From Verrucomicrobiota bacterium (GTDB lineage Bacteria; Verrucomicrobiota; Verrucomicrobiia; Palsa-1439): 64,000 nucleotides of DNA. The translations under genes were made by a program, and so were the position numbers. Shown here one piece after another: positions 2,200 through 55,336 of this stretch (position 1 is its first letter; each line of letters begins with the position of its first letter). Location of the stretch: assembly GCA_003152315.1 (NCBI GenBank), contig PLZV01000037.1, positions 105,679-169,678 on the forward strand. The letters run 5' to 3'. Under the pieces are notes generated by a model that searched no databases, was not told the origin of the DNA, and saw only the letters and a list, made by a program, of their open reading frames with translations.

Positions 2200-2350
2200 G
2201 GGCTTGATTCTGCCGTAAATGGCCGAATTTGTAAAGCATCTGACCGTTATGCTGGTTCGACAAGAGGCGGGATTCAGGCTAGCTTACGCTTGGTCTGGCG
2301 GGAAGAATGCTACGCACTCGTAATCAGCATTCATGAAGGGTAACAAATCA

Positions 2351-5300
2351 ATGATTCGATATTTCTGCGGTGCTTTGGCGCTGGTTTCCACTTTTCTTAC
2401 CACCGCAACCGCACAGACCGTATTCACCGAAGCCGGGGGTGTGATCGTCATTGAGGCAGAGAGTTATTCCAACAACACGGCGCGGATCACTGACGGCACA
2501 AATTTTCAATGGGTCACCAACAACGCAGTCGCCGGCTTCAGTGGCACGGGATACATGGAAGCGCTACCGAACATCGGGACGAACCTGAACACTACCTGGC
2601 TCACCACAAGCCCGGAGCTGGACTACACCGTCAATTTCGCCAACGCGCTGACGCACTACGTCTGGATTCGCGGCTACGCGGTAACGAATACCGATGACTC
2701 AGTCCATGCGGGAATCAATGGCACGACCAATTCCGCAGCGAACATCACCTTGAACCAGTACGGTGTCTGGCAATGGACGAGGACGAACACACTCAACGGC
2801 GTCGCCACCCTGACCGTCAACACAACGGGCATACAGCCCTTCAGCCTGTGGATGCGCGAGGACGGCTTGCGCGTCGATCGCATCATCCTGACGACCAACA
2901 ACAATTTCCAGACCACGCTTGGGAATGTCTTCCACATTCCCAGCGGCATTGAGGCCGGCAACAGCGGGCTTACGATGCGCAGCCCCCTGAGTGGAATCTC
3001 GTCCAACACGAAGGTGTTCCTCTACACGGGCAACCAGTTCCAGGGCTCGGGCAATCCGGGGAACCAACTGGCTACGGGCAGCACGATCTTTTATCGCAAT
3101 GCCACGAACACGACATGGACATCGATCCCGATGGGGTTCTGGTATCAAGGCGGAGCGAGCGGCAACAACAAGTACTACTCGAACTCGATTCCCGCGAACC
3201 TCTTCAACCCCGGCGACACGGTGCAGTATTATTTCAAAATTCCGTACAGCGACCACCTGCCGACGTTCTTGTACGGGAATGATAATGCTTCTCAGAGCAC
3301 TGAGATCGAGAGTATCGCCCAAGCCGGTCCGTTCAGCTACATTATTGCCGCGGGTCTGCAGCCGTCGGGGCCGTACGTCTCCTACACGAATGTTGTGGGC
3401 GCGACGCTCTTCGAAGCCCGGGTTTACCAAAACACTGGTCACGTTACGCTCACGGGCCCCGATCTCGCGGGCAACGCGCTGACGAACACCATCACCATTG
3501 AGCCAATTTCCGCCATCGTCAACGGTAGTTCGACCAGTGGGGGCACGGTGCTGTCGTCAACCGCGCTCAGCAATGGGGTGCAGTTTACGCAAGCGTTTGG
3601 CGTCACCAGCATCGTCGTGCAAGTCACTTTCCCGAGCCCGAATATCATGCACTATGAAGTCGTTGATTGGGGTGCGCAGGTTCTCACTTCCACGAGTATC
3701 ACCGTACCCTCGGACTCCAGTGAACATTTCTATGGATTTGGCGAGAAGTTCGACACGCTCGATCAAGCGGGCAACCGGGTTCACATGCTGACCATGGATA
3801 TAGCAGGCACGAAGGGCGACAATTCATACAAGGTCGCGTCATGGTTCATGAGTACCCGGGGCTATGGTTTTCACCTGGACTCGACGGACGAAAGCTACTT
3901 CGACATGCGCAACTCGGCGCCCGACCGCTATGTCATTAATAATTTGGTGGGGAACAGCAACTTTGGCGGCTACGTAACCAACGCCGTGAAATTCAACGTG
4001 GTATATGGTCCGTCGTTGCCCGATGTACTGACGCGATATACCAGTTACACGGGCCGGGCTGCGTTGCCGCCGAAGTGGGCATTTGCGCCGTGGATGTCGA
4101 GCGACATCTGGCACACGGGTGGCGAAGTACGCTACACGATCAGCAAGTACCGCGCTCTCGGGATTCCAGGCTCGGTCTTCGTCTTCGATTCACCGTGGGA
4201 GGTCGGGTACAATGATCTAACCTGGAACATGACGCAGTTTGGCAGCGGCGGGACGTACGAGGGCACGAACTATCCGGGATTCACTTCGGTCACCGATATG
4301 ATGACGTTCTTCCGCACGAACGGATTCTATACCGTTTGCTGGTTCACGCCGTTCATCAACACGGACTCGTCCTGTTGCGGTGAAGTGTCGGGACAGAATT
4401 TGGGTCAGTCGCCCAATTACGCGGAGGGCGCGGCGAGCAACTATTTCGCGCGAGCCTCGGCCAATGGGCCACCATTGGTCGTAAACTGGTGGAAGGGTAC
4501 GGGTAGCCCGGTGGACTTCACCAACCCGAATGCAAGACAATGGTTCCAGAACCAACTCAGCAGTTTACTTGCGACAAGCCAGAGTGGCGGCTACAACGTT
4601 ATCGGCGGATTCAAGACCGATGATGGCGAAACTGGCAACGGCGCGAATACCTACATCCCCACGAATGCAGTTTATTTCGACGGGCGCACAGGCGTTGAGA
4701 TGCGCAACGGTTACTGTGTCGAATACCACAAATCCGTGTGGAACGTGCTCGGCACCAACGGCGTGCTCTTCGCCCGTAGCGGTTTTGTGGGATCACAAGC
4801 ATATCCTGGGTACTGGGCCGGTGACAACGAGCCGAATTTCGGCGATGCCAATGGGTTGCCTAGCGTCGTCGTAGCGGGCCTGTCCTCCGCGATGAGTGGA
4901 TTTTCCATCTGGGCCTCAGACGTCGGCGGCTACCAAAACTCGAACCCCAGTTCCGCACGCACAAACTTGTTCATGCGGTGGGCGCAATTCGGGGCCTTTT
5001 CGCCATTAATGCAGATGCATCGCCAAGTCGACACGAGCACCCTGCTGCAATTCCCGTGGGGGTATGGCGCCGACGCACTCACCAATTACCTGTTCTATAC
5101 AAAGTTGCACACGGCGCTGTTCCCTTATCTCTACTCGTACGCATTGCAGTCGAGTACGAATGGTCTGCCGATCATGCGGCCGCTCGTCCTGATGAACCAG
5201 ACCGATACCAACACCTACGGCAGCATATACAACACCAGCCACTCGTTCCTGTTTGGCAATGAGCTGCTCGTGGCGCCGGTCATCACGAACACCGCTACGT

Positions 5301-6208
5301 CGCGCACGGTTTATCTGCCACAAGGTAACTGGTACGATTACTTTAGCAACGTCCGCTATAGCGGTGGCCAGACCATTACCTGGGTGAATGCCGACCAGCA
5401 CCAGATGCCGCTGTTCGTACGCGAAGGCGCGATCATCCCGATGATTTCCACGAACGTGCAAACCCTGGCCGATGCTGCGTACGTCAACAATCCCAACATC
5501 ATTACGGCGGATAGCTCCTTGCAGTTCCTGGTCTACCCGACTACGAATTCCAGTTTTACCGTCTATGACAGCACCAGCCTCTCATGCCAGTCCAATGGCA
5601 CGGTCATCTCGGCAACGCTTCTCTCTGTCCCGCGCCCGATCCTGCTGCGGTTCTTCGCGGCGGCGCCGTTCGGCGTCGAACGCGATGGCATTCGTCTTCC
5701 ACAATTCACCAACACCACCGACTTTGCCGGGGCGAGCCTTGGCTGGATCTACGACAGTGCCGGGTTTGTGAACGTCAAATTCAACCATGTGGGCGGTTCC
5801 GCACAAATTGCGTTTGGGCCGGATTCCATTGGGGATGGCATCTCGGATTCGTGGCGCGCCACTCAGTTCGGATCGCCCACCTCGACGAACAGCACCTCGT
5901 GCGCGACTTGCGACCCGGACGGAGACGGCTTGAACAACCGTCAGGAATATCTGGCCGGTACTTCGCCACAGGACGCCAGCAACTTTCTTCGGGTGAATTC
6001 ATTCCTGCCGAACGGGAACGACGCGAACATGGCCTTTGGAACGGTTTTGGGTATGAATTATCGCGTCGAGTATAATTCCGATCTTGTTACTGGCGTTTGG
6101 CTTGTGTTGAGTAATAATATTCCTGGCACCGGTGGAATCGTTCAGATCGTCGATCCGGGCGCGGTCAATCAATCGACAAGATTCTATCGAGTTAGATTGT
6201 TGCCATAG
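2351..6208 (+). CDS. secreted multidomain GH31 glycosidase with CBM35-like and Ca-binding C-terminal modules
   Basis: A 1285-residue exported glycosidase. Start ATG 2351 is preferred over the in-frame ATG 2333, because the GAAGGG ribosome site at 2335-2340 covers the earlier ATG and lies 10 nt before 2351. After a signal peptide ending near TATAQ, residues about 20-190 look like a CBM35-type galactose-binding fold (EAESYSNNTARI). The GH31 core follows. Asp757 in FKTDDGE is the expected nucleophile and Asp825 in YWAGDNEPN the expected acid/base. Most relatives have Phe after the nucleophile; here it is Asp. The C-terminus has a thrombospondin-3/dockerin-like calcium motif (DPDGDGLNNRQEYLAGT) and a final beta domain common in exported verrucomicrobial enzymes. 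Probably AraC-controlled. Substrate unknown; alpha-xylose or alpha-glucose linkages are likely. Confidence 0.9.
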   Translation: MIRYFCGALALVSTFLTTATAQTVFTEAGGVIVIEAESYSNNTARITDGTNFQWVTNNAVAGFSGTGYMEALPNIGTNLNTTWLTTSPELDYTVNFANALTHYVWIRGYAVTNTDDSVHAGINGTTNSAANITLNQYGVWQWTRTNTLNGVATLTVNTTGIQPFSLWMREDGLRVDRIILTTNNNFQTTLGNVFHIPSGIEAGNSGLTMRSPLSGISSNTKVFLYTGNQFQGSGNPGNQLATGSTIFYRNATNTTWTSIPMGFWYQGGASGNNKYYSNSIPANLFNPGDTVQYYFKIPYSDHLPTFLYGNDNASQSTEIESIAQAGPFSYIIAAGLQPSGPYVSYTNVVGATLFEARVYQNTGHVTLTGPDLAGNALTNTITIEPISAIVNGSSTSGGTVLSSTALSNGVQFTQAFGVTSIVVQVTFPSPNIMHYEVVDWGAQVLTSTSITVPSDSSEHFYGFGEKFDTLDQAGNRVHMLTMDIAGTKGDNSYKVASWFMSTRGYGFHLDSTDESYFDMRNSAPDRYVINNLVGNSNFGGYVTNAVKFNVVYGPSLPDVLTRYTSYTGRAALPPKWAFAPWMSSDIWHTGGEVRYTISKYRALGIPGSVFVFDSPWEVGYNDLTWNMTQFGSGGTYEGTNYPGFTSVTDMMTFFRTNGFYTVCWFTPFINTDSSCCGEVSGQNLGQSPNYAEGAASNYFARASANGPPLVVNWWKGTGSPVDFTNPNARQWFQNQLSSLLATSQSGGYNVIGGFKTDDGETGNGANTYIPTNAVYFDGRTGVEMRNGYCVEYHKSVWNVLGTNGVLFARSGFVGSQAYPGYWAGDNEPNFGDANGLPSVVVAGLSSAMSGFSIWASDVGGYQNSNPSSARTNLFMRWAQFGAFSPLMQMHRQVDTSTLLQFPWGYGADALTNYLFYTKLHTALFPYLYSYALQSSTNGLPIMRPLVLMNQTDTNTYGSIYNTSHSFLFGNELLVAPVITNTATSRTVYLPQGNWYDYFSNVRYSGGQTITWVNADQHQMPLFVREGAIIPMISTNVQTLADAAYVNNPNIITADSSLQFLVYPTTNSSFTVYDSTSLSCQSNGTVISATLLSVPRPILLRFFAAAPFGVERDGIRLPQFTNTTDFAGASLGWIYDSAGFVNVKFNHVGGSAQIAFGPDSIGDGISDSWRATQFGSPTSTNSTSCATCDPDGDGLNNRQEYLAGTSPQDASNFLRVNSFLPNGNDANMAFGTVLGMNYRVEYNSDLVTGVWLVLSNNIPGTGGIVQIVDPGAVNQSTRFYRVRLLP

Positions 6209-6292: not shown

Positions 6293-6320
6293 TTGACATT
6301 TTTGCACAAATCTATACACT
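6293..6320 (+). promoter_or_regulatory. sigma70-like promoter for the giant PEP-CTERM gene
   Basis: A perfect TTGACA at 6293-6298 is followed 16 bp later by TACACT at 6315-6320; an overlapping TATACA at 6313 would give a 14-bp spacer. It sits in an AT-rich pocket 45-95 bp before the candidate starts of the giant surface protein gene. The preceding gene ends at 6208, so this gene probably forms its own transcription unit. Confidence 0.55.
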
Positions 6321-6364: not shown

Positions 6365-9300
6365 TTGGCACAGGGGCGATTCCAAGAGATTCCTTTTTCG
6401 CGAGTTAAGAATTCGGTGAGGATTTTTTTCACACGCTTTTTGTCTGGTTGGATTGTAACGCATTTACTGGCGTTTACCTTTGTGATTTCCGTCTACGGCG
6501 CTTCGACCGATTTTACCCCAACGACGTCAGGCACGTCCGATTCCAATGTCAGCGGTAATTGGGACAATGGTCGGCCCACGAACAATGGCTTGGATGACAA
6601 CTTCACGATGTCTTTCAGTGGTGCCATTACGGTCACGAATTTTCTGAGTGCAGGTGGCGGGTCCCTTAACTTTGTTCGGCTCTCAACGGCAGGCTCCGGC
6701 ACGCTGACGGTGATCAGCTCTGCGGGGTTCGATTCAAATTTCGGGCTTCAGCTCAACAATAACGACACGCTTATCATCGCGAATAACTCGACAATTAGCC
6801 ACGGCAACAATGCGTTCGGTGACAGCGGCGGCACGCTAACCGTTAGCAACAGTGCGTCGGTCTTTATCAACATCGGCGCCAACGCCGTACAGAACACCGG
6901 CACGATTCAACTGACCTCGACCAGCGGGCAGACTTCTGACATCAACTACGGCCAGTCAACGGGCGGCGCGTTCAACAACAGTGGTACGGGTACGATCATT
7001 CAAAACGGCACCGGCACGGGCACATTCGTCGGGAACTTTGGCGCGAACAGCATTGCGTTCCTCAATAACGGTAAGATTATCGTGAACGGCGGCACGTTAT
7101 CCATCGACCCGCGTGACGCGCAGTCTAGCGGCGGTTTCAGCAATGCAGCGGGGGGCGTGGTGCAAGTCAACGCGGGCGCCACGTTTGCGATCAACCGAAG
7201 CACAGCCGCATGGAACGCCAATGACGCCCCTAATGTCGGCACCATCATTCTGAATGGCGGCACGGTTACGACGCTGGAGGGCGGCAGTCAGGTTGTTACC
7301 CATACGATTCGGAACTCCGGCACGATCATGGGCAATGGTACGCTGGCGTTCGGTTTGTTCAACCCGGCAAACACGGGCAACGTCATCGCCTCGAACGGCG
7401 TTCTGGTTGTTGGGCAGGTCTTTGGCAATAACGGCACCTGGTTGGCGATCAACGGCGGTACGATGTTGATCTCGAGCAACACGGACCTGGGAGCCAGCGT
7501 GATGTCAAACGGCGTGGGCGGCACCTGGCGGATTGGCCAGACAGGAAGCATCAATAATACACTGACAATGTCCACGTCGTTTTTTAATAATGACGGCACG
7601 CTTTTGCTCGGGAATAGCAGTGGATCCGGTAGCACGTTGACCATTGCGGGCAACACGGGCATTGACGGCAAGACGTTCACAAACTCCACGACCGGGATAA
7701 TTGCTGGACGCGGTACGTTTTTCTTTGGCTTCGGGCAATCGGCTGGTCAAAGCACGAATGTTGGCTTTATCAACAATGGCAGCATCCTGGCGGGCCAAGG
7801 TGGCGCGGGCAGCCTGTCATTTAACATGGGGGACACGGCGAATGTCCCGTTTAGCAACTCGGCGTCCGGCACGATCGTCATCAGCAATGGCACTTCCCTG
7901 GCCGTGCAGCGCACTGCGAATGCCTGGAACAACGCGACACTGGACTCCCAGCGCGTCGGGAACGCCGGAACAATTATCATCAACGGCGGCACGTTTGTAA
8001 GTCAGGCGGGGAACGGCGCCGACGCGTCACGCCTGATACTCAACGGGGGGACAATCATCGCACAGGGGGTCGGCACGGCCACGAATTCCTGGCGAGCGGG
8101 CTTGGAGAACCGCGGAACAATTTACGTGACGAACAATACCTCGGTCTTCAACATGCTTACGTCCGTAGCTGTCACCAATCGATCCACGGGCCAGATATTC
8201 CTCGGCGGCGCTGGTGGCGCGGTCGGTACGATCGTCGCAACCAACATTGGACAGAACGGCAATTCACTCTTCAATCAGGGATTAATTCAAGGTCAGGGCA
8301 CCCTCACACTGGGGGTGGTCAATGACCCGCGCAGCAGCGGCGCGAGCGCCAACTATGTCAACTCCGGGACCTTACTGGCGACCAATTGGGGCAGTGCCAC
8401 GGCCGGCACTCTATTTATCAGTGTCGGTAACGCGTTTTCCAACGGCGGCTTTAGTAATACTTCCGCTGGCACGATCTTGATTGCGACCAACACAACACTG
8501 ACGATCAATCGCACCGAAAACGCGTGGGTGAACAGCGATAATTCAGTGGCCAACTTTGGGACCATCGCGCTGGCGGGGGGCACGTTGAATCTGGCAGCCG
8601 ATGGGGTTGTCAGCAACTCAGCCAGCTTCATCAATACGGGACTGATCACTGGTTATGGGACGATCGATAGTGTGGTCATCACAACCAACGGTGGCAAGAT
8701 GCTGGCCATTGCCACAAACCTTACCAGTGTCGGCACGCTGACGGCCAGGATCGCGAGTACGACCAACAACTCCAGCGCGACACTTGGCACCATTGGCACC
8801 AACTCCGTCCTTAACCTCATTGCCCCGGGCGGCCAAAACTTCTTGATTAACTTTGGCACCATTTCCGTGTCGGGCGGCACGATCAACTTCAACGGCAGCG
8901 CCGCCACGATCACCAACTTCTTTGTCGTCGGCGGTGTGGGGAATCTCAGCAGTTTTGGCATTGTGAACACTGGCGCCTTGGCCTCGGTCGTGGCGCAGGG
9001 GCCGGTTTCTGGTCTGAGTAACTTGATCGCCAGCGTCGGCGTCACCAATTCCGCGCTGCTTGGCGCCAATAACTTGATTGGGGGCGCGGCCACGCTGACC
9101 CTCGGCACCACCACCGGTGGCGGCCTGGTTAACAACGGCACCTTGGCGATTCAGGGCGGGTTCATCACCGTGACCAATGCGGCGGGGGTCGATGCGGGCG
9201 TGACCAATAACTTGGGTCAGATTTACGGTAATGGCATGCAGACCTTCAGCGTCGTTAATTTGGCCGGCGGATCAATTGTTGCCAGCAACGGATTGCTCAA

Positions 9301-12300
9301 GCTCGGCCTGACCGGCGCCAATGCCGGGACCTTGGGCAATTTCAATTCCTCTTCAACGATCATCTTGACCAACACAGTATTGGTGAACTCGGGCCGCATC
9401 GCCCTCAATGGTGGCGGCTTGGTTATGGGCGGCAGCACGATCACCAATGAGGGGACCATCACGGGCCCGGGCGATTATTCTTCCGGCCTTTACAATGATG
9501 TGAACGGTTTTGTGGCGGCGACCAACGGCACATTGAATATTGCGACCAATGGCACGACAGAATCCGTTCAGAACCTTGGTGCTTTCAGCATTGCCAGCGC
9601 TAGCGTGCTCAATGTCATACCCGATTGGAATAATACCGACGGTCTTGTCGGTTTGGCCGGTGGCACGTTGACCGGCGGGGCGGTCACGAACATGGGGACG
9701 ATCACGGGCAATGGTACAATTACCAGCGCCGCCTTCATAAACGCGGCGAATGGCACGGTCACCGCATCCTCGGGTGGCACGCTGAACATTCTATCGGCGA
9801 CGGCAGCGCTGAACGGGACAATGATTGCCGGCACGTCGCAGTCGATCGTCATGACCAACCTCACCAGCCTCGTGAACAATGGTACGATGATCCTCAACGG
9901 CGCCGCCAGCGACGCCAATACATCCTTCTTAATTCTGCGTAACGGCGGAGCGGGTGATTTCACCAATGCGGCGGGGGCGGTCATTCAGGGGGCGGGTTAC
10001 TTCGCAACGGGCGTCAGCGGAGGCACCAGCTTTACTGAATGGAACCAGGGGGCCATCGTGGCCACAAACGGCTCTTTGATTCTGCAACCCCTGCATGCGT
10101 TTGGGAACGGCGGTTTTGTGAATATGGCAGGAGGAAGTGTCACCGTTGCGCTGAATTCCACCTTGGGTATCCAACGTAACAATGATGCCTGGAGTTCCAG
10201 CGGGACGGTACCGATCAACGCCGGCCTGATCCAATTGAATGGCGGCTCGGTGACGTTTTATGGAGACGGCCTGGCCATCGCCAATGATCGCGCGTGGAGC
10301 AACGCGCCGAGTGGGGTGATTAGTGGCTTTGGAACGCTGATGTCCAGCGTGAATAACCTGGGCACAGTGGTAGCGACCAACGGCAATCTCAACATTAACA
10401 ATGCTTCAGCCGTCACGCAAAACGGCACCATCAGCATCGCCAACGGTGCGATATTGACGGTGTTGGGTTCAGCGGGAAGTTTCCAGAACAACGGTCGGAT
10501 GGCGCTGTCCGGCGGCGCGTTCGTGGGCACCAACTTCTCGCAATTGGCCAATGCGGGCACAATCACCGGTTTTGGCACGATTCAAACCGGCCGACTCAAC
10601 GGCAGTGGCGGCGCGAACCAGCAGATCATCAACATGGCCGGCGCGCTCATCGACGCCACCAACGGCACGCTATTCCTCAACCCCGGCGACACCTTCAGCA
10701 ATGGCGGGTTCAGCAATGCAGCCACCGCGACGGTGCGGGTCGAAAACAACGCGACGCTTGCGCTGAACCGCACGGCGAATGCGTGGAACAACAGCGGATT
10801 GAACCCTCGCAACCTTGGCACGATCTCAGTACTGGGTGGGTCGGTGGTGTTGTATGCGGACAGCGCGGTGGACCCCTCACGATTCATCGATAACGTCAGC
10901 GGGACGATCAGCGGCTCTGGTACAATTTCCGCCAGCCTCACGAATCTTGCCGCCGGCACGATTCGGGCGACGGGCGGGACGCTGGCACTGCAGGGTACGG
11001 GCGTGTTCGGTCAGCAGGGTACGCTCCAAGTGGACGGTGGAGCGACGATGCTGATCAGCAATGCGAACGGTCTGGTGTCGTTGAAAAATGCCGGCACCAT
11101 CAACATGAACGGTGGCACGCTGTTCGCCGGAATCGTGAGCAACGCCAACTGGATCTTTGGTAGCGGCGTCATCACGGGCAACGCGAGCGCGGGGGTCGTG
11201 AATATCAGCAACACCTTCCTGTTCGCGAGTAACGGCGTCTTATCGGCCAGCTTGGGGAGCTTTACAAATGGCGCCGGTGTGACGATGGGGACGCTCAGTA
11301 CGGACGCCGTCCTGAACGTGCAGATGCCCGGCGGCGCATCGCAGCCCTTGATTAACCAGGGCCTGCTCAGCTTCGCGGGTGGTACGCTGCTGGCCAACGG
11401 AACAGGCGGCGGCGTGATCACGAACACCAGCACCGGCGTTATCAGCGGCGTCGGCAACGTCACCCAGACTGTCGTCAACAATGGCACCATCCTGGCCGCC
11501 AACGCTGTCGGCACCTTAAATATTTTTTCCGTCGGGCTTAGCGACCTGAATTCCGCGACGCTCGGCGCTAGTAACGGGGCGATCCTCAACGCCGTCATCA
11601 GCGGAGGCACCGGCAGTAGCTTCAACAACAACGGCTCGATTTCGATGATCGGTGGCACGCTAATCATCTCCAATGCCACACCCGGCGTCATCACCAACAA
11701 TCTGTTTGTCAGCGGTGTCGGCACGATCACGCCGAACATCGTGAACGACGGCACGATCCAGGCAACTGTTAACGCTGGGGTGCTGGATTTCTCGCTCCTC
11801 GGCGGTACGAATGCAACTGGTGGTTACATCGGAGCCGGATTGGTAGCCGTGGCCCAGATGGAGAACGGTTCCTTGGTCAATCTGGGCACCATCGGCGCGG
11901 TCGGTGGTAATGGTGGCACGATCCAACTGGCTGCCGGTTCGGGCATCATCACCAACCGCGCGTTGATTACGGGTAACGGGAACCTGGCGATCAACAATTT
12001 CATCCAGAACGATTCAGTCGGTCGCCTCACCGCCACCAACGGCACGTTCACAGTCAATTCTATCAATGGGTTGGCCAACAACGGTACGATTGACGTCCAG
12101 AACGGCGGCACGTTCCAATCTAACTCATCGAACTCGTGGAGCAACGCCGGCAATATCGACCTGCGTGGCGGCACGCTGCGCACGGGCGGGTTCACGAACG
12201 CGGCGGTCAGCGCCAGCTTCACCAATTCTGCCAGCGGCATCATCAGCGGCTACGGCACCCTGATCGGCGGCGGCGCCTTCGGCCAGACCGGGTCCGGGTT

Positions 12301-14365
12301 CGACAAATCAATCATCAACCTTGGTCTGATCATCGCGACCAATCCGCTGAGCGGCGCGGCGCAGACGCTGTTCCTTAGCACGGGCGGAGCCACGACGGGC
12401 GGTGGGATCCAGAATTTGGGCACGATGATTGTTTCGTCCAATAACACCCTGACGCTTGACCGCGGCGGGCTGCCCGTGCTGAACACCGGCACGATTACGG
12501 TCAACAACGGTACGCTGTCGAGCACGAGCACAATCACCAATACCTCGAACGGAATCATCCAGGGCTATGGCACGCTGACCGCCAGTATCGTGAATCAATC
12601 CGGCGGCACCATTCGCGCCACCAACGGGCTGTTGACAATGACCAGTACGGTCTTCCCAATCAACCAAGGTACCTTCGAGATCGACAACAGCTCGACCATG
12701 ACCTGGGACACGAGCAACTCCTGGATCAACAGCGGCACGGTCGACCTGCGCGGCGGTACTCTGCGCACGGGCGGGGCGACCAATGCGGGCGTCACGGCCA
12801 TCTTCACGAATCTCAATACCATTATCGGGTTCGGCACAGTCTATGGTGGGGGTGCGTTCAACACCAATGGCGTTGGCATTGATAAGTCGATCGTCAACAT
12901 TGGCACGGTCATCGCGAGCAACGGCGTCTTGACGTTAAATACCGGCGTGGCCACCTCACAGCGCGGCCTGGCCAACCTCGGCACGATGATCATTGCCACG
13001 ACCAACGATACGCTCGTGCTGGCGCGCACGGCGGAGGTTTCCCCGGTCCTGACCAACCTGAACTACGTGTACAACAGCGGGACGATCCTGATCAATGGCG
13101 GCACGCTGACATCCAACACCTCTGTGACCAATAACAACGAGAACGTCAGTCTGCCGGGTTTGATCCAGGGCTTTGGAACCATCGCGTTGACCAATCAGTT
13201 GGTGAATCTGGGCACGATTCGGTCCACCAATGCCGTGACTGGCGGCGACGGGATATTGCGATTTGTGAATCCCGCGGGCAGCGCACTGCAGATCAACCAG
13301 AGCGGCACACTTGCGGTCGAAGCCGGCAGTCAGATGGTGTTCGGTGGCGACACCAACGTCCCCTTGTTGAACAGTGGCACGATCGCCATGAACGGCGGTA
13401 TCTTGCGCAGCGGCCTGTTGACCAACAGTTTCGGAGCCACGTTCCGGGGCTTTGGCACCATCACTTCCAGCATCATTAATTCAGGCACGGGGTTGGCCAC
13501 CGCTCTTTCCGCACCACTGCATTTGACCGGCAGCACGGTGTTCAACCAGATCAACGGCGTATTCGGAGCCAACAACGGACGCTTGATTGTGGATACGGTG
13601 TTCACCAACGCCGGCACGGTCAGCTTCATCAATAGTGTGGGTACTTTCGCGAGCGCGGTCGTCAATAGGGGCGCCTGGATCATGGACCCGAGCACCAACG
13701 TCTTTCTCGCCGACTACACTGTCGCCACCAACGGCTACGTCAGCATGACCGCAGGTGACGTGAGTATCTTCAAGAGCAACTTCGTCAACGTCAGCACGCT
13801 TTCCAACAAGTACAATACGGTCAATGGCAAGTTTGTCATGGATGGGCAGGGCACGCAGCAGTTCTTCGTGGCGGGGATCAACCTGGGTGGCTTCGCCAGC
13901 AGCGTGCAATCCTCTAACGAGATCTTCTTCACCAATGGGAGCGGGACATTCTCGACGAATGCGTTTAGCATGGGCAAGGACGACACGATCTACGGCTACT
14001 CCAACAACTTCGCGCTGGGTGCCCTGGAGTTGAGCGACCTGTCAACCACCGTAGTGATGGACGCCTTCGGCGCGGTCGGCACCAATGACGGACTGGTGGC
14101 CGGGTTGTACTTGAACACCCTGACACTCGATCCCGGCTCGCTGCTGATCATCAGCAACAACGTCGAGTTGTACTTTCAGAGCACCAACGGAGTGACGGGA
14201 GTGGGCCTCGGGGTGCTGGGTGCCGGTGACAACATCATGGTCCTCGATGGCGGCTCCTTGCACCAACTCACTGTAGTCCCCGAACCCAGCATCCTTATGC
14301 TGCTCACCGTCGGAGCTTTCGCAATCCTGAAGTACCGACGCCGGTCTGTTAGGAAGCAAGCGTGA
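6365..14365 (+). CDS. giant secreted beta-solenoid adhesin-like protein with PEP-CTERM tail
   Basis: About 2,650 residues, low in charge and very rich in Gly, Asn, Thr and Ser. An N-terminal hydrophobic segment ending ISVYGA acts as the signal peptide. TTG 6365 is the outermost start; in-frame GTG 6416 gives a more usual signal peptide, and neither has a strong ribosome site. The body is dozens of degenerate repeats of the type NNGTI..NGGTL..FTNAASG.I.GFGT, spaced roughly 40-60 residues, as in autotransporter-associated beta-helix passengers. There is no outer-membrane beta-barrel. The protein ends with VVPEP, a hydrophobic helix and KYRRRSVRKQA, a PEP-CTERM signal recognised by exosortase. 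It is likely displayed on the surface or released into exopolysaccharide. No exosortase lies in this window. Function (adhesion, matrix) is inferred from architecture only. Confidence 0.88.
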   Translation: MAQGRFQEIPFSRVKNSVRIFFTRFLSGWIVTHLLAFTFVISVYGASTDFTPTTSGTSDSNVSGNWDNGRPTNNGLDDNFTMSFSGAITVTNFLSAGGGSLNFVRLSTAGSGTLTVISSAGFDSNFGLQLNNNDTLIIANNSTISHGNNAFGDSGGTLTVSNSASVFINIGANAVQNTGTIQLTSTSGQTSDINYGQSTGGAFNNSGTGTIIQNGTGTGTFVGNFGANSIAFLNNGKIIVNGGTLSIDPRDAQSSGGFSNAAGGVVQVNAGATFAINRSTAAWNANDAPNVGTIILNGGTVTTLEGGSQVVTHTIRNSGTIMGNGTLAFGLFNPANTGNVIASNGVLVVGQVFGNNGTWLAINGGTMLISSNTDLGASVMSNGVGGTWRIGQTGSINNTLTMSTSFFNNDGTLLLGNSSGSGSTLTIAGNTGIDGKTFTNSTTGIIAGRGTFFFGFGQSAGQSTNVGFINNGSILAGQGGAGSLSFNMGDTANVPFSNSASGTIVISNGTSLAVQRTANAWNNATLDSQRVGNAGTIIINGGTFVSQAGNGADASRLILNGGTIIAQGVGTATNSWRAGLENRGTIYVTNNTSVFNMLTSVAVTNRSTGQIFLGGAGGAVGTIVATNIGQNGNSLFNQGLIQGQGTLTLGVVNDPRSSGASANYVNSGTLLATNWGSATAGTLFISVGNAFSNGGFSNTSAGTILIATNTTLTINRTENAWVNSDNSVANFGTIALAGGTLNLAADGVVSNSASFINTGLITGYGTIDSVVITTNGGKMLAIATNLTSVGTLTARIASTTNNSSATLGTIGTNSVLNLIAPGGQNFLINFGTISVSGGTINFNGSAATITNFFVVGGVGNLSSFGIVNTGALASVVAQGPVSGLSNLIASVGVTNSALLGANNLIGGAATLTLGTTTGGGLVNNGTLAIQGGFITVTNAAGVDAGVTNNLGQIYGNGMQTFSVVNLAGGSIVASNGLLKLGLTGANAGTLGNFNSSSTIILTNTVLVNSGRIALNGGGLVMGGSTITNEGTITGPGDYSSGLYNDVNGFVAATNGTLNIATNGTTESVQNLGAFSIASASVLNVIPDWNNTDGLVGLAGGTLTGGAVTNMGTITGNGTITSAAFINAANGTVTASSGGTLNILSATAALNGTMIAGTSQSIVMTNLTSLVNNGTMILNGAASDANTSFLILRNGGAGDFTNAAGAVIQGAGYFATGVSGGTSFTEWNQGAIVATNGSLILQPLHAFGNGGFVNMAGGSVTVALNSTLGIQRNNDAWSSSGTVPINAGLIQLNGGSVTFYGDGLAIANDRAWSNAPSGVISGFGTLMSSVNNLGTVVATNGNLNINNASAVTQNGTISIANGAILTVLGSAGSFQNNGRMALSGGAFVGTNFSQLANAGTITGFGTIQTGRLNGSGGANQQIINMAGALIDATNGTLFLNPGDTFSNGGFSNAATATVRVENNATLALNRTANAWNNSGLNPRNLGTISVLGGSVVLYADSAVDPSRFIDNVSGTISGSGTISASLTNLAAGTIRATGGTLALQGTGVFGQQGTLQVDGGATMLISNANGLVSLKNAGTINMNGGTLFAGIVSNANWIFGSGVITGNASAGVVNISNTFLFASNGVLSASLGSFTNGAGVTMGTLSTDAVLNVQMPGGASQPLINQGLLSFAGGTLLANGTGGGVITNTSTGVISGVGNVTQTVVNNGTILAANAVGTLNIFSVGLSDLNSATLGASNGAILNAVISGGTGSSFNNNGSISMIGGTLIISNATPGVITNNLFVSGVGTITPNIVNDGTIQATVNAGVLDFSLLGGTNATGGYIGAGLVAVAQMENGSLVNLGTIGAVGGNGGTIQLAAGSGIITNRALITGNGNLAINNFIQNDSVGRLTATNGTFTVNSINGLANNGTIDVQNGGTFQSNSSNSWSNAGNIDLRGGTLRTGGFTNAAVSASFTNSASGIISGYGTLIGGGAFGQTGSGFDKSIINLGLIIATNPLSGAAQTLFLSTGGATTGGGIQNLGTMIVSSNNTLTLDRGGLPVLNTGTITVNNGTLSSTSTITNTSNGIIQGYGTLTASIVNQSGGTIRATNGLLTMTSTVFPINQGTFEIDNSSTMTWDTSNSWINSGTVDLRGGTLRTGGATNAGVTAIFTNLNTIIGFGTVYGGGAFNTNGVGIDKSIVNIGTVIASNGVLTLNTGVATSQRGLANLGTMIIATTNDTLVLARTAEVSPVLTNLNYVYNSGTILINGGTLTSNTSVTNNNENVSLPGLIQGFGTIALTNQLVNLGTIRSTNAVTGGDGILRFVNPAGSALQINQSGTLAVEAGSQMVFGGDTNVPLLNSGTIAMNGGILRSGLLTNSFGATFRGFGTITSSIINSGTGLATALSAPLHLTGSTVFNQINGVFGANNGRLIVDTVFTNAGTVSFINSVGTFASAVVNRGAWIMDPSTNVFLADYTVATNGYVSMTAGDVSIFKSNFVNVSTLSNKYNTVNGKFVMDGQGTQQFFVAGINLGGFASSVQSSNEIFFTNGSGTFSTNAFSMGKDDTIYGYSNNFALGALELSDLSTTVVMDAFGAVGTNDGLVAGLYLNTLTLDPGSLLIISNNVELYFQSTNGVTGVGLGVLGAGDNIMVLDGGSLHQLTVVPEPSILMLLTVGAFAILKYRRRSVRKQA

Positions 14366-22667: not shown

Positions 22668-22795
22668 TTGGTGACGGCGGTTCCGGCACCAAACGAGAGC
22701 CGCCGGACCGGACGGATCAAGCGGCTCTCTTGCTCCGGGGCTTACTTGACTACTTCTTGCGGCGAATGACAGCCAGCGCTCCAACCAAACTCAAC
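22668..22795 (-). repeat. 128-bp repeat, copy 1: PEP-CTERM gene end plus terminator hairpin
   Basis: This block covers the last 15 codons of the PEP-CTERM gene at 22750 and the hairpin beyond it. It recurs without gaps at 23996-24123, with 8 differences by my reading (about 94% identity). See the second copy. Confidence 0.85.
22695..22729. terminator. hairpin between convergent nadE and PEP-CTERM gene
   Basis: Arms GAGAGCCGC (22695-22703) and GCGGCTCTC (22721-22729) pair perfectly around a 17-nt loop. On the minus strand the hairpin is followed by GTTTGG, a weakened T-run. The duplicate copy at 24016-24057 has TTTTTT there, so this copy may be a partly decayed terminator. Confidence 0.55.
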
Positions 22796-23388
22796 CCTAC
22801 CAGCGCCACGGTGCCCGGTTCGGGAACGTCGCTGATGATGATGTAGGTTGGTTGATTAAGCGGGTTATTCGGGTCGGACCCCGGTTGACCCACAGCCGGT
22901 ACGTACACATACCCGTTGGGTCCCCTCTCTGAATACGGCTGCCCGAATAAGCCAGTCTCAGTAACAGAGAACACGTTGGGATACGATGCGCCGGGCAACC
23001 CAATGTCGGCCGAATCAAAGGGGGGCAGATCGTTGGTCTCAATATCCGAATAGAACACCAGCGTGGCGTTGTTGGCGTTCCACCGAATCAGATCCGAATA
23101 TCCACCGCCTGGCTCAAGTAGCACAAGGTCTCCCTGCACAAGTCCGGCCGGCGTCGTAAACGTCAGCGCGTTTGGAAGACCACCCGGACCGGGATCCTGC
23201 ATCAGGAAACCGGGATGATCTGCACCATTGAGCAAGTTGAACACTTGGGCGTCGACAAAGCCGTTTGTCCTTTCGGTAACTTGTAACGTGAAACCTTGCC
23301 CACGGGCGCTTGGAACAGCTAGCAGCAAACACACCATGGCTGCCAGGATGGCTGTCAGGGACAGCCGGTCGATGCGAACACGTTTCAT
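22750..23388 (-). CDS. exported PEP-CTERM protein 1
   Basis: A 212-residue protein with a signal peptide (from MKRVRIDR, cleaved near SARGQ), a middle of no recognised family, and a C-terminal PEP-CTERM signal (SDVPEPGTVALVGLSLVGALAVIRRKK). The middle is reminiscent of other verrucomicrobial PEP-CTERM proteins in length and Gly/Asp/Pro content. ATG 23388 has AAGGAG five bases before it and is preferred over upstream in-frame codons to 23430. Likely anchored or processed by exosortase. It is the leftmost cargo of the tandem HTH-leader-cargo array. Confidence 0.82.
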   Translation of the reverse strand: MKRVRIDRLSLTAILAAMVCLLLAVPSARGQGFTLQVTERTNGFVDAQVFNLLNGADHPGFLMQDPGPGGLPNALTFTTPAGLVQGDLVLLEPGGGYSDLIRWNANNATLVFYSDIETNDLPPFDSADIGLPGASYPNVFSVTETGLFGQPYSERGPNGYVYVPAVGQPGSDPNNPLNQPTYIIISDVPEPGTVALVGLSLVGALAVIRRKK

Positions 23389-23497
23389 GAGGACTCCTTT
23401 TGGTTGCCCAGCACTCGCTATGGCTGACAACCGATGACGATCCCTGCCCGTGCGGCCACCACTTCGTAAGTACGAAAGAACAGCACAGCACGGAAGG

Positions 23498-25356: not shown

Positions 25357-26121
25357 TTACCTCCGCAGGAGTTTCCGGCGTATCCGCCAAAGGCCCATGA
25401 TGCCACCGATACATACGAGCACCATCGTGCTAGGCTCAGGAACGGAGTGGATGTTTCCTGCGTCGGCTCCCTCTCCGTAGTGTGTGATTCGACCAGGCCA
25501 GAAGTCCTCGGTCGTGTCGCTTCCATTCAATAGGTAGTTCACGTTGGTGATGACAGGAGGGTAACTCCCGTCGCGAGTCCATGCGGCTCCATAGTTCCAC
25601 AGCGCGCACTCGTTACTCATCACAATAGTGCCTGTCAGGCTCCCGAATCTCAAGTCAAAGAACACATCCAACGTATCAGTGAAAGTTCCGTTAGTGCCTC
25701 CCGAATTAAAAGTCATCGTGCCGGTGTCAGTGCTGGCCGGACCACCGCGAGCACTTTGCAGCGTCAAGTAGTAATAACCCGGACCGGCGCCCCAATTCAG
25801 TTCGTTCACAGAGCGAAGCTGCCAAGCCACCAAATTCGCCGTGAAGTTTGTTGAGCCTCCTCCGTCAGGGCCAACGATGTTTGTGGGCCGGTACACAATG
25901 GTGTCCACGTCGCCGACGTTTTGATTGGTGCCGCCAAAATCAAAAGTCCCCAAGGGGACACCTTGAAATGGTTCATAATTGAACGTCGTCACGCTCGAAT
26001 CGGTTATGAACAGATCCCAGCCCGAATGGATAGTCAGTTCGGCCCGGCTTGCGACGGAACCTCCCAACCCGAACACAACCATCCCTGTGAGAACAATGTT
26101 TCTAACGAATCGACGACTCAT
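25357..26121 (-). CDS. exported PEP-CTERM protein 2
   Basis: A 254-residue protein with a signal peptide (MSRRFVRNIVLTGMVVFG, cleaved near SRAE), an unclassified beta-rich body and a C-terminal PEP-CTERM signal (VPEPSTMVLVCIGGIMGLW then RIRRKLLRR). AAAGGAG six bases before ATG 26121 gives a strong start. The body does not resemble PEP-CTERM protein 1, though both share leader and upstream HTH sequences. It is the third cargo of the array and the only one placed directly behind an apparently intact HTH gene (26223-26573), 101 bp downstream of it. Confidence 0.85.
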   Translation of the reverse strand: MSRRFVRNIVLTGMVVFGLGGSVASRAELTIHSGWDLFITDSSVTTFNYEPFQGVPLGTFDFGGTNQNVGDVDTIVYRPTNIVGPDGGGSTNFTANLVAWQLRSVNELNWGAGPGYYYLTLQSARGGPASTDTGTMTFNSGGTNGTFTDTLDVFFDLRFGSLTGTIVMSNECALWNYGAAWTRDGSYPPVITNVNYLLNGSDTTEDFWPGRITHYGEGADAGNIHSVPEPSTMVLVCIGGIMGLWRIRRKLLRR

Positions 26122-53258: not shown

Positions 53259-53299
53259 TCGGCTTGCGCATCTGGCATTGGCCGCTACAATGGCGGCCA

Positions 53300-55336
53300 A
53301 TGCAGACCACTTCGGACCATGCGGAGTTCCCGTGGCTTCGTCCTGAATTCGCCCGATTGTTAGCGATCCTCTGGGTGGTTGGGTTGGTGCTGGTTTACCT
53401 CGTTCGCTACGGCGCGTGGGTTCTGCCCTGGCAAGCGGCGAACCTGTTCGGCGCGGCGCTGCCCGCGCTTCACATTGGCCCGCATTTTCAGGAATTCTGG
53501 ATCGCACGGGCCTACGACTTCGCGTGCGTCGTCGGGATTGCGGTCGCGGCGCTGGGTTTGGGCGCAACAGTGACGCACCGGCTCGTGGCAAAGAGTGACA
53601 TTTTCGGCGCGCTGCTTGCCTTGGCCGTTGGTTTCTGGCTCCTGGCCGTGCTCGTGCTCGTGGCGGGATCCGTGTCCATCGCGAACATCCCGCTAGTATG
53701 CCTCGCATTGCTCTGCTGGTTCTTGCCTGCGCCCCGGAAGTTCGTCCGGAACTTTCAGGTTTCAACGGACCGGACTGACGGTTGGGCGAAGCTGATGGTC
53801 GCGTGCATCGTGCTTGCCGCGGTGCTCAACCTTGCGGGCGCGTCGGCCCCGCCGTTTGAATACGACGAACTCGAATACCATCTCGGCGCGCTGGCGGATT
53901 ATCAGCGCGCCGGCCGCATCGTGTTCCTGCCGCACAACTTCTATTCGAACCTGCCACAACTGACCGAGATGCTGTACCTGCTGGCGAAGACCATGACCAC
54001 GGACGTTGCGGCGAAGATGTTGCACTGGCTGTTTGGTCTGCTCGGCGCGCTGGCGGCATTCGGCGTGGCGCGGCGGCTGTGGTCGCGGGCCGTGGGGTTC
54101 ACGGCGGCGGCCCTGTTTTACTGCACGCCGTTCGTGCAGGACCTGGGGCAAACCGCGCGGATTGATTTGGCGACGGCGTTTTTCGCGACACTGGCGTTCG
54201 GCGCGCTGGTGATTTGGAACGAAGATGAAAGGCTCGACCTCGTTTGGTTGTCGGCCCTCTGTGCCGGTGCGGCGGTGGCGACAAAGTGGACGGCGATCCC
54301 GGTCGTGTTGTTACCATTGGCGGTATTGTTGGCATTCCGCCGGAAATTCCGGCTGCTACCGGTCTTCGGCCTTCTCGCCGTGGCTGTCGTCGCGCCGTGG
54401 TTGGTGAAGAATTGGCTGTCGACTGGCAATCCGGTCTACCCGCTCTTCCATCAATGGTTCCCGAACCCACATTGGAGCGCGTCTCAAGCCGCGGTGTTTT
54501 CAGAGAAGCATTATCCGATGTTCGGGTGGGGAACCATCGGACAGTTTTTCTCATTACTGTGGAACTATTCATTCGTTGAGGTGGGCGCAGTCCCGCTGTT
54601 GCTGATGACAACGCCGCTGGTCCTGGTGGTCTCGCGGTTCGAACCGGCGGCGAAGCGGGCGGGTTGGTTGGTCGCGGGCACCTACACGAGCTGGTTTTGC
54701 TTTACCTTTCGACCCTGGCGGTTTTTGTTTCCTGCCTTTGGCATGGCAGCCGTGGCGGGCGCGTTCGCGATGGAGAAACTCGGTCGCGAAACGCTCGTGC
54801 GATTCGCCCTGCGCCTGGCCGTTGCAATTGTCATGCTGGTAAGCCTTGCGACGCTGGCGTTGAATGATTTGGTGGACACGGAAAACCCGGAGCGTGTACC
54901 GCCCCAGATGAATTTCCTGCAGTACACGCTCGGACAATTCACGCGGGACGAATTCATCGCGCGAATGGGGAAGGGTGTGCTCGAGCCGATCATTTGGATG
55001 AACGAAAATCTGCCCAGCAACGCCAAAGTGCTCTATGTGGGAGAAGGTCGCGTGTATTATGCGAAACAGCCTGTCCTGTGGAGCACGGCGTTTGACCAGC
55101 ATCCGCTCACGGCGATGAGTAACGAGGCGAAAACGACGGAGGAGTTGCTGTCGGAACTGCGCGCCAAGGGGGTCTCGCATGTGTACATGAATTTTGCCGA
55201 ATTGGATCGGTTGCGACGCGGTTATGATTACATGCTGGACGCAAATTGGAGCCTGATCCAAAACACCCTGCAACATCATGCGACGGAAGTTCACCGGACG
55301 GGACGCGGGGTTGTGTACGAACTGGCGGATAAGTAG
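53300..55336 (+). CDS. GT39/ArnT-like membrane glycosyltransferase
   Basis: A 678-residue membrane protein with about 11-12 helices and the acidic first-loop motif FEYDELEYHLGALADYQRAG, typical of lipid-phosphate-sugar glycosyltransferases of the GT-C fold. A hydrophilic C-terminal domain of about 150 residues starts near MNEN. ATG 53300 (MQTTSDHAEF) is chosen over the upstream frame from 53264. Probably transfers sugars to lipid or glycan in the envelope. First gene of a glycan cluster with the GT4 and WecA-like genes. Confidence 0.75.
   Translation: MQTTSDHAEFPWLRPEFARLLAILWVVGLVLVYLVRYGAWVLPWQAANLFGAALPALHIGPHFQEFWIARAYDFACVVGIAVAALGLGATVTHRLVAKSDIFGALLALAVGFWLLAVLVLVAGSVSIANIPLVCLALLCWFLPAPRKFVRNFQVSTDRTDGWAKLMVACIVLAAVLNLAGASAPPFEYDELEYHLGALADYQRAGRIVFLPHNFYSNLPQLTEMLYLLAKTMTTDVAAKMLHWLFGLLGALAAFGVARRLWSRAVGFTAAALFYCTPFVQDLGQTARIDLATAFFATLAFGALVIWNEDERLDLVWLSALCAGAAVATKWTAIPVVLLPLAVLLAFRRKFRLLPVFGLLAVAVVAPWLVKNWLSTGNPVYPLFHQWFPNPHWSASQAAVFSEKHYPMFGWGTIGQFFSLLWNYSFVEVGAVPLLLMTTPLVLVVSRFEPAAKRAGWLVAGTYTSWFCFTFRPWRFLFPAFGMAAVAGAFAMEKLGRETLVRFALRLAVAIVMLVSLATLALNDLVDTENPERVPPQMNFLQYTLGQFTRDEFIARMGKGVLEPIIWMNENLPSNAKVLYVGEGRVYYAKQPVLWSTAFDQHPLTAMSNEAKTTEELLSELRAKGVSHVYMNFAELDRLRRGYDYMLDANWSLIQNTLQHHATEVHRTGRGVVYELADK

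Follow-up and report, generated by a model that had tools for sequence, protein, structure and literature searches.

PEP-CTERM proteins are numerous in environmental Gram-negative bacteria. The closest described system, in which such proteins are the cargo of exosortases (TIGR02595 and TIGR02602), was set out by Haft et al. 2006 (PMC1569441), whose account names Cys, Arg and His motifs of the exosortase. Among more recent reports, deletion of the exosortase in Nostoc punctiforme is stated to have abolished motility and biofilm formation (PMC12188702), a PEP-CTERM gene is stated to be involved in floc formation in Aquincola and PEP-CTERM proteins to be required for it in Zoogloea resiniphila (PMC9850573, PMC9012009), and in Akkermansia 23 PEP-CTERM proteins were reported as predicted, with 9 seen by mass spectrometry (PMC4960237). 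Among the matches listed from the open-licence literature, no title or abstract start describes giant beta-helical PEP-CTERM proteins. Further comparisons are offered by the beta-helical passengers of type Va, such as Ag43 and TibA, in which PATR (PF12951) or TIGR02601 repeats are common, though not strictly required, and by the type Vb exoproteins of the EtpA and FHA type. Against this background, the locus analysed here encodes a protein that is of uncommon size within an already known kind, the PEP-CTERM cargo.

The locus lies in a 64,000-nucleotide stretch of a Verrucomicrobiota genome, referred to below as the window. An open reading frame at 6365..14365 (+) runs from TTG to TGA over 2,666 codons, with no internal stops, and occupies a stop-to-stop frame of 2,675 codons; residue numbers below are those of the 2,666-residue translation from TTG 6365 (P0001). 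A second genome of the same genus (G002) holds a syntenic ortholog of 2,720 codons stop to stop, and the surrounding gene order is common to both, with a GH31 gene upstream and Ldh_2 and Lon genes downstream. Since a frame of similar length occurs in the same context in G002, both an assembly artefact and a chance frame can be ruled out. Across the C-terminal half, pN between the two genomes is far under pS. The original prediction of an eight-kilobase PEP-CTERM gene at 6365-14365 is therefore borne out by the open frame, by the syntenic ortholog and by a TIGR02595 match over its cut-off. It had left the start codon in doubt between TTG 6365 and GTG 6416. In the alignment with G002 the former stands opposite GTA and the latter opposite GTG; as only GTG 6416 is kept, it is most likely the translation start, so that the gene would span 6416..14365 (+), GTG to TGA, and encode 2,649 aa (2,666 aa with the TTG 6365 start), in agreement with the predicted length of about 2,650 residues. 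From the same codon, a putative signal peptide (6416..6499, +), with a basic n-region and a hydrophobic core recognised by eye, would likely be cleaved near the VYG-A junction; the N-terminal structural model has a helix at 2-20, and this start region can be aligned in G002 and in a further genome, G008. A search of the host genome with the whole protein returned the giant itself as its sole match, the gene contains a single pair of DNA repeats (96 nt, 78%), and Rfam at gathering thresholds gave no match anywhere in the 64-kb window.

The protein ends in VPEPSILMLLTVGAFAILKYRRRSVRKQA, which was annotated as a PEP-CTERM signal (14276..14362, +) made up of VPEPS, a hydrophobic helix and the basic stretch YRRRSVRKQA. 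The PEP motif, helix and basic cluster that characterise PEP-CTERM cargo are thus all present at the C-terminus, and the terminal helix is also predicted by structural modelling (residues 592-616 of the C-terminal model). The NCBIfam PEP-CTERM model TIGR02595 scored 17.3 bits on the protein (22.0 bits in the genome search) against a cut-off of 16, while the Pfam model PF07589 reached 18.5 bits, just under its cut-off of 20.7. This signal, at residues 2638-2660, is the sole family match in the giant protein (Pfam E<=0.1; NCBIfam E<=1). Exosortases, on whose presence in the genome the original prediction depended, were found: TIGR02602 has three matches, of which two exceed the cut-off (172 and 144 bits versus 105.6), and all three translations carry C-x-G, N-x-x-R and H-x-x-x-G motifs, so that the genome holds exosortases with the Cys, Arg and His motifs expected of this system. 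Downstream of one exosortase lie an EpsI/DUF3485 protein (Pfam 45.4 versus 26.1; NCBIfam TIGR02914 29.8 versus 42.8, below cut-off) and a partial sugar-transferase-like protein (CoA_binding_3/EPS_sugtrans-like; over the Pfam and below the NCBIfam cut-off). Another adjoins a downstream TIGR03016-like outer-membrane protein that scores below cut-off. The third exosortase-like protein (L003, contig C3), under the TIGR02602 cut-off and best matched by exosortase W, also below cut-off, shares its contig with one of the two over-cut-off exosortases.

The host genome as a whole is rich in candidate cargo, with 61 PEP-CTERM matches at E<=10, of which 51 are over the cut-off; because this search also gave over-cut-off matches in 2 of 14 control genomes, a few of these matches may be due to chance. 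The next-longest over-cut-off frame has 669 aa, making the giant about four times longer. The earlier description of the protein as unusual therefore holds for its length within the genome, but less well for its kind, given how common PEP-CTERM signals are here (51/61), the occurrence of a 545-aa frame that pairs PEP-CTERM with PATR, and module-sharing giants elsewhere in the family. In this 545-aa frame (contig C18, ~99480-100109, -) the PEP-CTERM match passes its cut-off and the PATR match falls short of its own, so that passenger-like repeats with a PEP-CTERM tag occur twice in the genome. Two more small PEP-CTERM proteins are encoded in the window itself, at 22750-23430 (-) and 25357-26121 (-), and the former has a tail like that of the flocculation protein PepA (NF033554, 28 residues, below cut-off).

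The DNA upstream of the gene was described in the original prediction as a consensus promoter. It contains a promoter-like site, TTGACA-16-TACACT (6293..6320, +), with TTGACA at 6293-6298, a 16-nt spacer and TACACT at 6315-6320. The first hexamer has all six consensus letters and fits this description, whereas the second has four of six and fits it less well. In G002 the site is kept with one letter of the second hexamer changed (TACAGT), and a 37-nt block around it is identical at 33 of 37 positions; for the intergenic DNA that flanks it, the figure is 91 of 133 aligned positions (binomial P 0.003, calculated post hoc). Sites with at least 9 of 12 consensus letters numbered seven in the region, versus 3.9 +/- 1.7 in shuffles, and TTGACA-N15-18-TAYACT occurs eight times in the host genome and once in a reversed control. 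Taken by itself, the sequence TTGACA-16-TACACT is weak evidence for a promoter. TTGAC is also found upstream of relatives in G007 and G008, where a four-way alignment left the boxes out of register. Two extensions were rejected. The site did not emerge as the motif of a PEP-CTERM regulon: the mean best upstream score was 8.10 for 29 genes versus 7.92 for letter shuffles, and no sign of a shared sigma-70 motif was seen upstream of these 29 PEP-CTERM genes, which were the 30 best of the 61 matches less one with too little upstream DNA (L032), with starts guessed as the first ATG or else the first GTG/TTG. Likewise, a leader element, GTAAAACG, spotted by eye 3' of the box in the orthologs, had 2 sites versus 13 in the reversed control.

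In composition the giant protein is dominated by Gly (16.2%), Thr (12.3%), Asn (11.9%) and Ser (9.7%); it has no Cys, only 17 Glu, 67 Asp, 14 Lys and 19 Trp in 2,666 residues, and 71 N-x-S/T sites. The abundance of Thr, Asn and Ser and the lack of Cys agree with the features of PEP-CTERM proteins given in Haft et al. 2006 (PMC1569441). With the cargo described there, the giant shares this composition, the signal-peptide-like start, the tail of PEP motif, helix and basic residues, and a genome with exosortases and an EpsI-like protein; it differs in being about four times the length of the next over-cut-off frame of its genome, in the beta-helix of its modelled parts and in a C-terminal module of its own before the tail. 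Elsewhere in the window, a PMT_2-type glycosyltransferase (53264-55336, +) was noted that could possibly glycosylate Asn/Thr/Ser-rich surface proteins.

The chain is periodic. Hydrophobicity in 120-residue windows has a period near 7 residues (2.5 versus 1.0 in shuffles), a signal confined to the windowed spectrum, as the whole-chain spectrum does not rise above shuffles (top peak 8.0, shuffle maximum 9.2). Self-similarity is at a maximum at lag 7 and peaks again at lag 21, as expected from three strands per coil; the predicted strand repeat is ~7 residues and the coil ~21 residues. AlphaFold2 with alignments of the relatives was used to model both ends, together 1,260 of 2,666 residues. The model of residues 2050-2666 (10 sequences) reached pLDDT 77.5 and pTM 0.77, with pLDDT <50 at model residues 456-498 and 557-594, and that of residues 18-660 (6 sequences) reached pLDDT 69.4 and pTM 0.67; both consist mainly of strand. 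In comparisons with known structures by VIA-align 2, TibA (Z 16.5, rmsd 3.1 over 247 aligned residues) and Ag43 (Z 16.5, rmsd 3.5 over 250) ranked first for the C-terminal model. For the N-terminal model the first place went to the EtpA secretion domain (Z 16.8, rmsd 4.7 over 277 aligned residues), followed by TibA (Z 16.3, rmsd 4.1 over 260). In both cases many further beta-helices, among them polysaccharide lyases and the tailspikes of phages, score slightly below the top Z. Foldseek alone gave no match with E <0.001 for the C-terminal model (best 0.0068), and a sequence search of PDB chains gave one chance match (E 0.088). These data predict that both ends of the protein are beta-helices, so that the fold on which the original prediction had staked itself is the one obtained in each modelled end; the middle 1,389 residues, which have the same style of repeat, are inferred to be beta-helical too.

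These structural likenesses bring the giant close to several systems with which it does not otherwise agree. Like the passengers of Ag43 and TibA, its modelled parts are predicted beta-helices (Z ~16.5), and a beta-helical passenger of the type Va kind is found in the models of residues 18-660 and 2050-2666 only. It differs from them in having a PEP-CTERM tail in place of a C-terminal barrel, and in lacking sequence matches to them in Pfam, NCBIfam or PDB chains. The 12-stranded autotransporter barrel PF03797 was found neither in the protein nor in the genome by a search that matched 2 of 14 control genomes, in keeping with the earlier statement that an outer-membrane barrel is missing. PATR and TIGR02601 repeats have no match in the giant (E<=0.1 in Pfam, E<=1 in NCBIfam), and none of the genome's 15 PF12951 matches falls in its gene. 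The genome does encode other very long predicted repeat proteins on contig C41 (1,470-2,455 aa); these differ in that they match PF12951, which the giant does not, and end in a '..R[FY]YRVR..' module without PEP-CTERM. The frames concerned (L084, L085) measure 2,455, 1,547, 1,473 and 1,470 aa, where the final one was read over part of its length, and all four resemble the C-terminal end of the GH31 protein next to the giant (window 2333-6208, +) in the pattern '..DPGG/A..R[FY]YRVR..P'. That end of the GH31 protein lies outside every Pfam and NCBIfam match, and the '..R[FY]YRVR..' module appears to be another C-terminal signal or domain in use alongside PEP-CTERM.

The resemblance of the N-terminal model to the EtpA secretion domain, its best structural match (Z 16.8, rmsd 4.7, 277 aligned), raises the alternative of a type Vb two-partner-secretion exoprotein that has acquired a PEP-CTERM tail and is threaded across the outer membrane by a TpsB barrel. 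NPNL/NPNG is the motif of the TPS domain, and it is absent from the giant protein, as is any Pfam match to the TPS domain itself (E<=0.1). The EtpA score is, moreover, tied with that of TibA (16.3) and close to those of other beta-helices, and a search for ShlB (PF03865) gave no match in the genome, but none in any control genome either, so that it does not establish absence. The PEP-CTERM tail further separates the giant from EtpA and FHA-type proteins, and a type Vb origin seems highly improbable.

Such structural matches would also be given by an exported enzyme of beta-helical fold, or by a fusion of several domains that act on polysaccharides. With Z ~13 to 15.5, the matches include PL6 lyases, GH110, polygalacturonases and tailspikes, the top Z-scores being barely over those of other beta-helices, and the gene just upstream encodes a GH31 enzyme that carries a GH115_C domain. 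Against this, no enzyme family of Pfam or NCBIfam is matched in the 2,666 residues, and a repetitive Gly/Asn/Thr chain with few Glu, Asp, Lys and Trp would provide poor material for active sites. We therefore consider it very unlikely that the protein is an enzyme rather than an adhesive rod. Pfam and NCBIfam name no binding domain in it.

Relatives of the whole protein were found in 8 of 93 genomes, the host genome included, while a full-protein scan of named genome contigs found none. What they have in common is a C-terminal module (13505..14275, +; residues 2381-2637), the first part of which continues the solenoid and portions of which, beyond that part, are modelled at low confidence. A model of ~290 C-terminal residues (A4) matches 8 of the 11 genomes of the family; one of these matches, in G009, covers the last 63 positions only, and the module proper is therefore counted in seven. 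At a threshold of 1e-10 and with at most 8 candidates scored per genome, a class-wide search with A4 matched 15 of 286 genomes, seven in the family and eight outside it, the latter more weakly (best 1.5e-23) and mostly in part, with one match covering positions 25-294. Complete stop-to-stop frames of relatives have 2,622 and 2,880 codons in G007 and 2,791 codons in G002, and several others, in G002 (contig C34), G006, G008 and G010, are broken off by contig ends. A relative's frame in G001 (contig C73; L057, L083) extends over at least 5,087 codons to the contig edge, with a PEP-CTERM tail at its end. G007 is the Verrucomicrobiia MAG Bin_23R, two loci of which were matched in a search with a close alignment of this module. 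Spread over several of its contigs, eleven frames that range from 620 to 2,880 codons match the module at E <= 2.2e-58, a strong expansion compared with the single copy in the host genome.

The relatives were compared without composition correction, a setting in which unrelated solenoid stretches cross-match at ~25-30%, and only clearly best pairs were used. The 2,880-residue protein of G007 matches the giant at 58% identity, and residues 61-640 of the giant match residues 1177-1797 in the middle of this protein, in line with the order of the matches in the whole-protein search. In addition, G002 has a 495-aa PEP-CTERM frame that joins the same module to a tail of its own. On this evidence, modules have been shuffled among relatives. 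A new observation is that 7 of the 11 genomes of the family carry the C-terminal module, and that it sits on giant, module-shuffled proteins.

Divergence between the giant and its G002 ortholog is unevenly distributed along the gene. Variable segment 1 (6545..8584, +; residues 61-740) is followed by a conserved solenoid segment (8585..9490, +; residues 741-1042), variable segment 2 (9491..10264, +; residues 1043-1300) and a conserved segment (10265..13504, +; residues 1301-2380), with the beta-helix model beginning at residue 2050. In the neighbouring GH31, Ldh_2 and (in part) Lon genes, which served as controls, pS was 0.408 +/- 0.072 with a maximum of 0.544 (19 windows of 100 columns). In the giant gene, 11 of 27 full-size 100-column windows exceeded this maximum, all within residues ~1-768 and ~1069-1324, as did the short last window (pS 0.60 on 42 codons). 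Of the 50-column windows, whose values show more scatter than the 100-column controls, all 14 across residues 61-742 lay at pS 0.61-0.83 and 4 of 6 across residues 1043-1298 were over 0.544, whereas those elsewhere lay at 0.17-0.54, except for the last 18 codons (0.85). Protein identity in 50-column windows of segment 1 was 28-63% up to residue ~640 and 82-84% at 643-742. Alignment gaps are concentrated in the variable segments, where pS is near saturation and alignment error can inflate it; at residues 643-742, however, pS is 0.70 with 82-84% identity and no gaps, and misalignment is therefore not the cause there.

Replacement of a native segment by a diverged homologous one, whether by recombination or by gene conversion from a paralogue, would account for the rise of both pS and pN. 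The compared sequences yielded no donor of segments 1 and 2, and repetitive domains mutate and slip readily, which, like the clustering of gaps in the variable segments, would also fit relaxed selection or a local mutation rate without any exchange. Relaxed selection alone, however, would leave pS unraised and is insufficient for values of 0.61-0.83 in 14 of 14 windows, gap-free residues 643-742 among them; a local hot spot of mutation might still produce such values, but we regard this second account as unlikely. By comparison of the two sequences, residues ~61-740 and much of ~1043-1300 have probably been exchanged, while the promoter, start and C-terminal half were retained. These distal, probably exchanged segments are the part of the finding most worth following.

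Taken together, these results partly support the original interpretation, whose readings of fold and sorting hold as predictions, with an adhesin role and good expression as possibilities. On balance, we favour a 2,649-residue exosortase/PEP-CTERM cargo that would form a beta-helix rod at the cell surface or in the exopolysaccharide (EPS), with the C-terminal module as its base and exchanged distal segments. The rise of a beta-helix is 0.48 nm per coil. At 21 residues per coil, ~2,590 residues would give ~120 coils and hence a rod of 55-60 nm; a surface- or EPS-associated rod of this length, with a variable distal half, is the most likely form of the protein. Sec would export the protein, an exosortase would cleave its tail at the inner membrane, and the product would, after transit of the outer membrane, become attached to the cell surface or to the exopolysaccharide. 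It would be oriented with the C-terminal module as base and the N-terminus as tip, the conserved C-terminal half serving as stalk and attachment, and the distal N-terminal segments, exchanged between lineages, would probably do the contact work, with glycan, EPS, other cells or phage as possible partners. Most likely it would serve in the matrix as a structural or an adhesive protein.

More tentatively, and with considerable doubt, this Verrucomicrobiae lineage may display rods longer than the width of its own periplasm by the exosortase route, without an autotransporter barrel, and swap whole solenoid cassettes at the far end between lineages without change to promoter, signal peptide, stalk or anchor, which would amount to a cassette-exchange system of surface variation on the PEP-CTERM pathway. 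Being a large and clearly marked cargo whose base is fixed and whose tip appears exchangeable, the giant is a concrete test object. It lets one ask whether folded beta-helices can travel by the PEP-CTERM route across the outer membrane, and whether the distal half faces diversifying pressure from surfaces, neighbours or phages.
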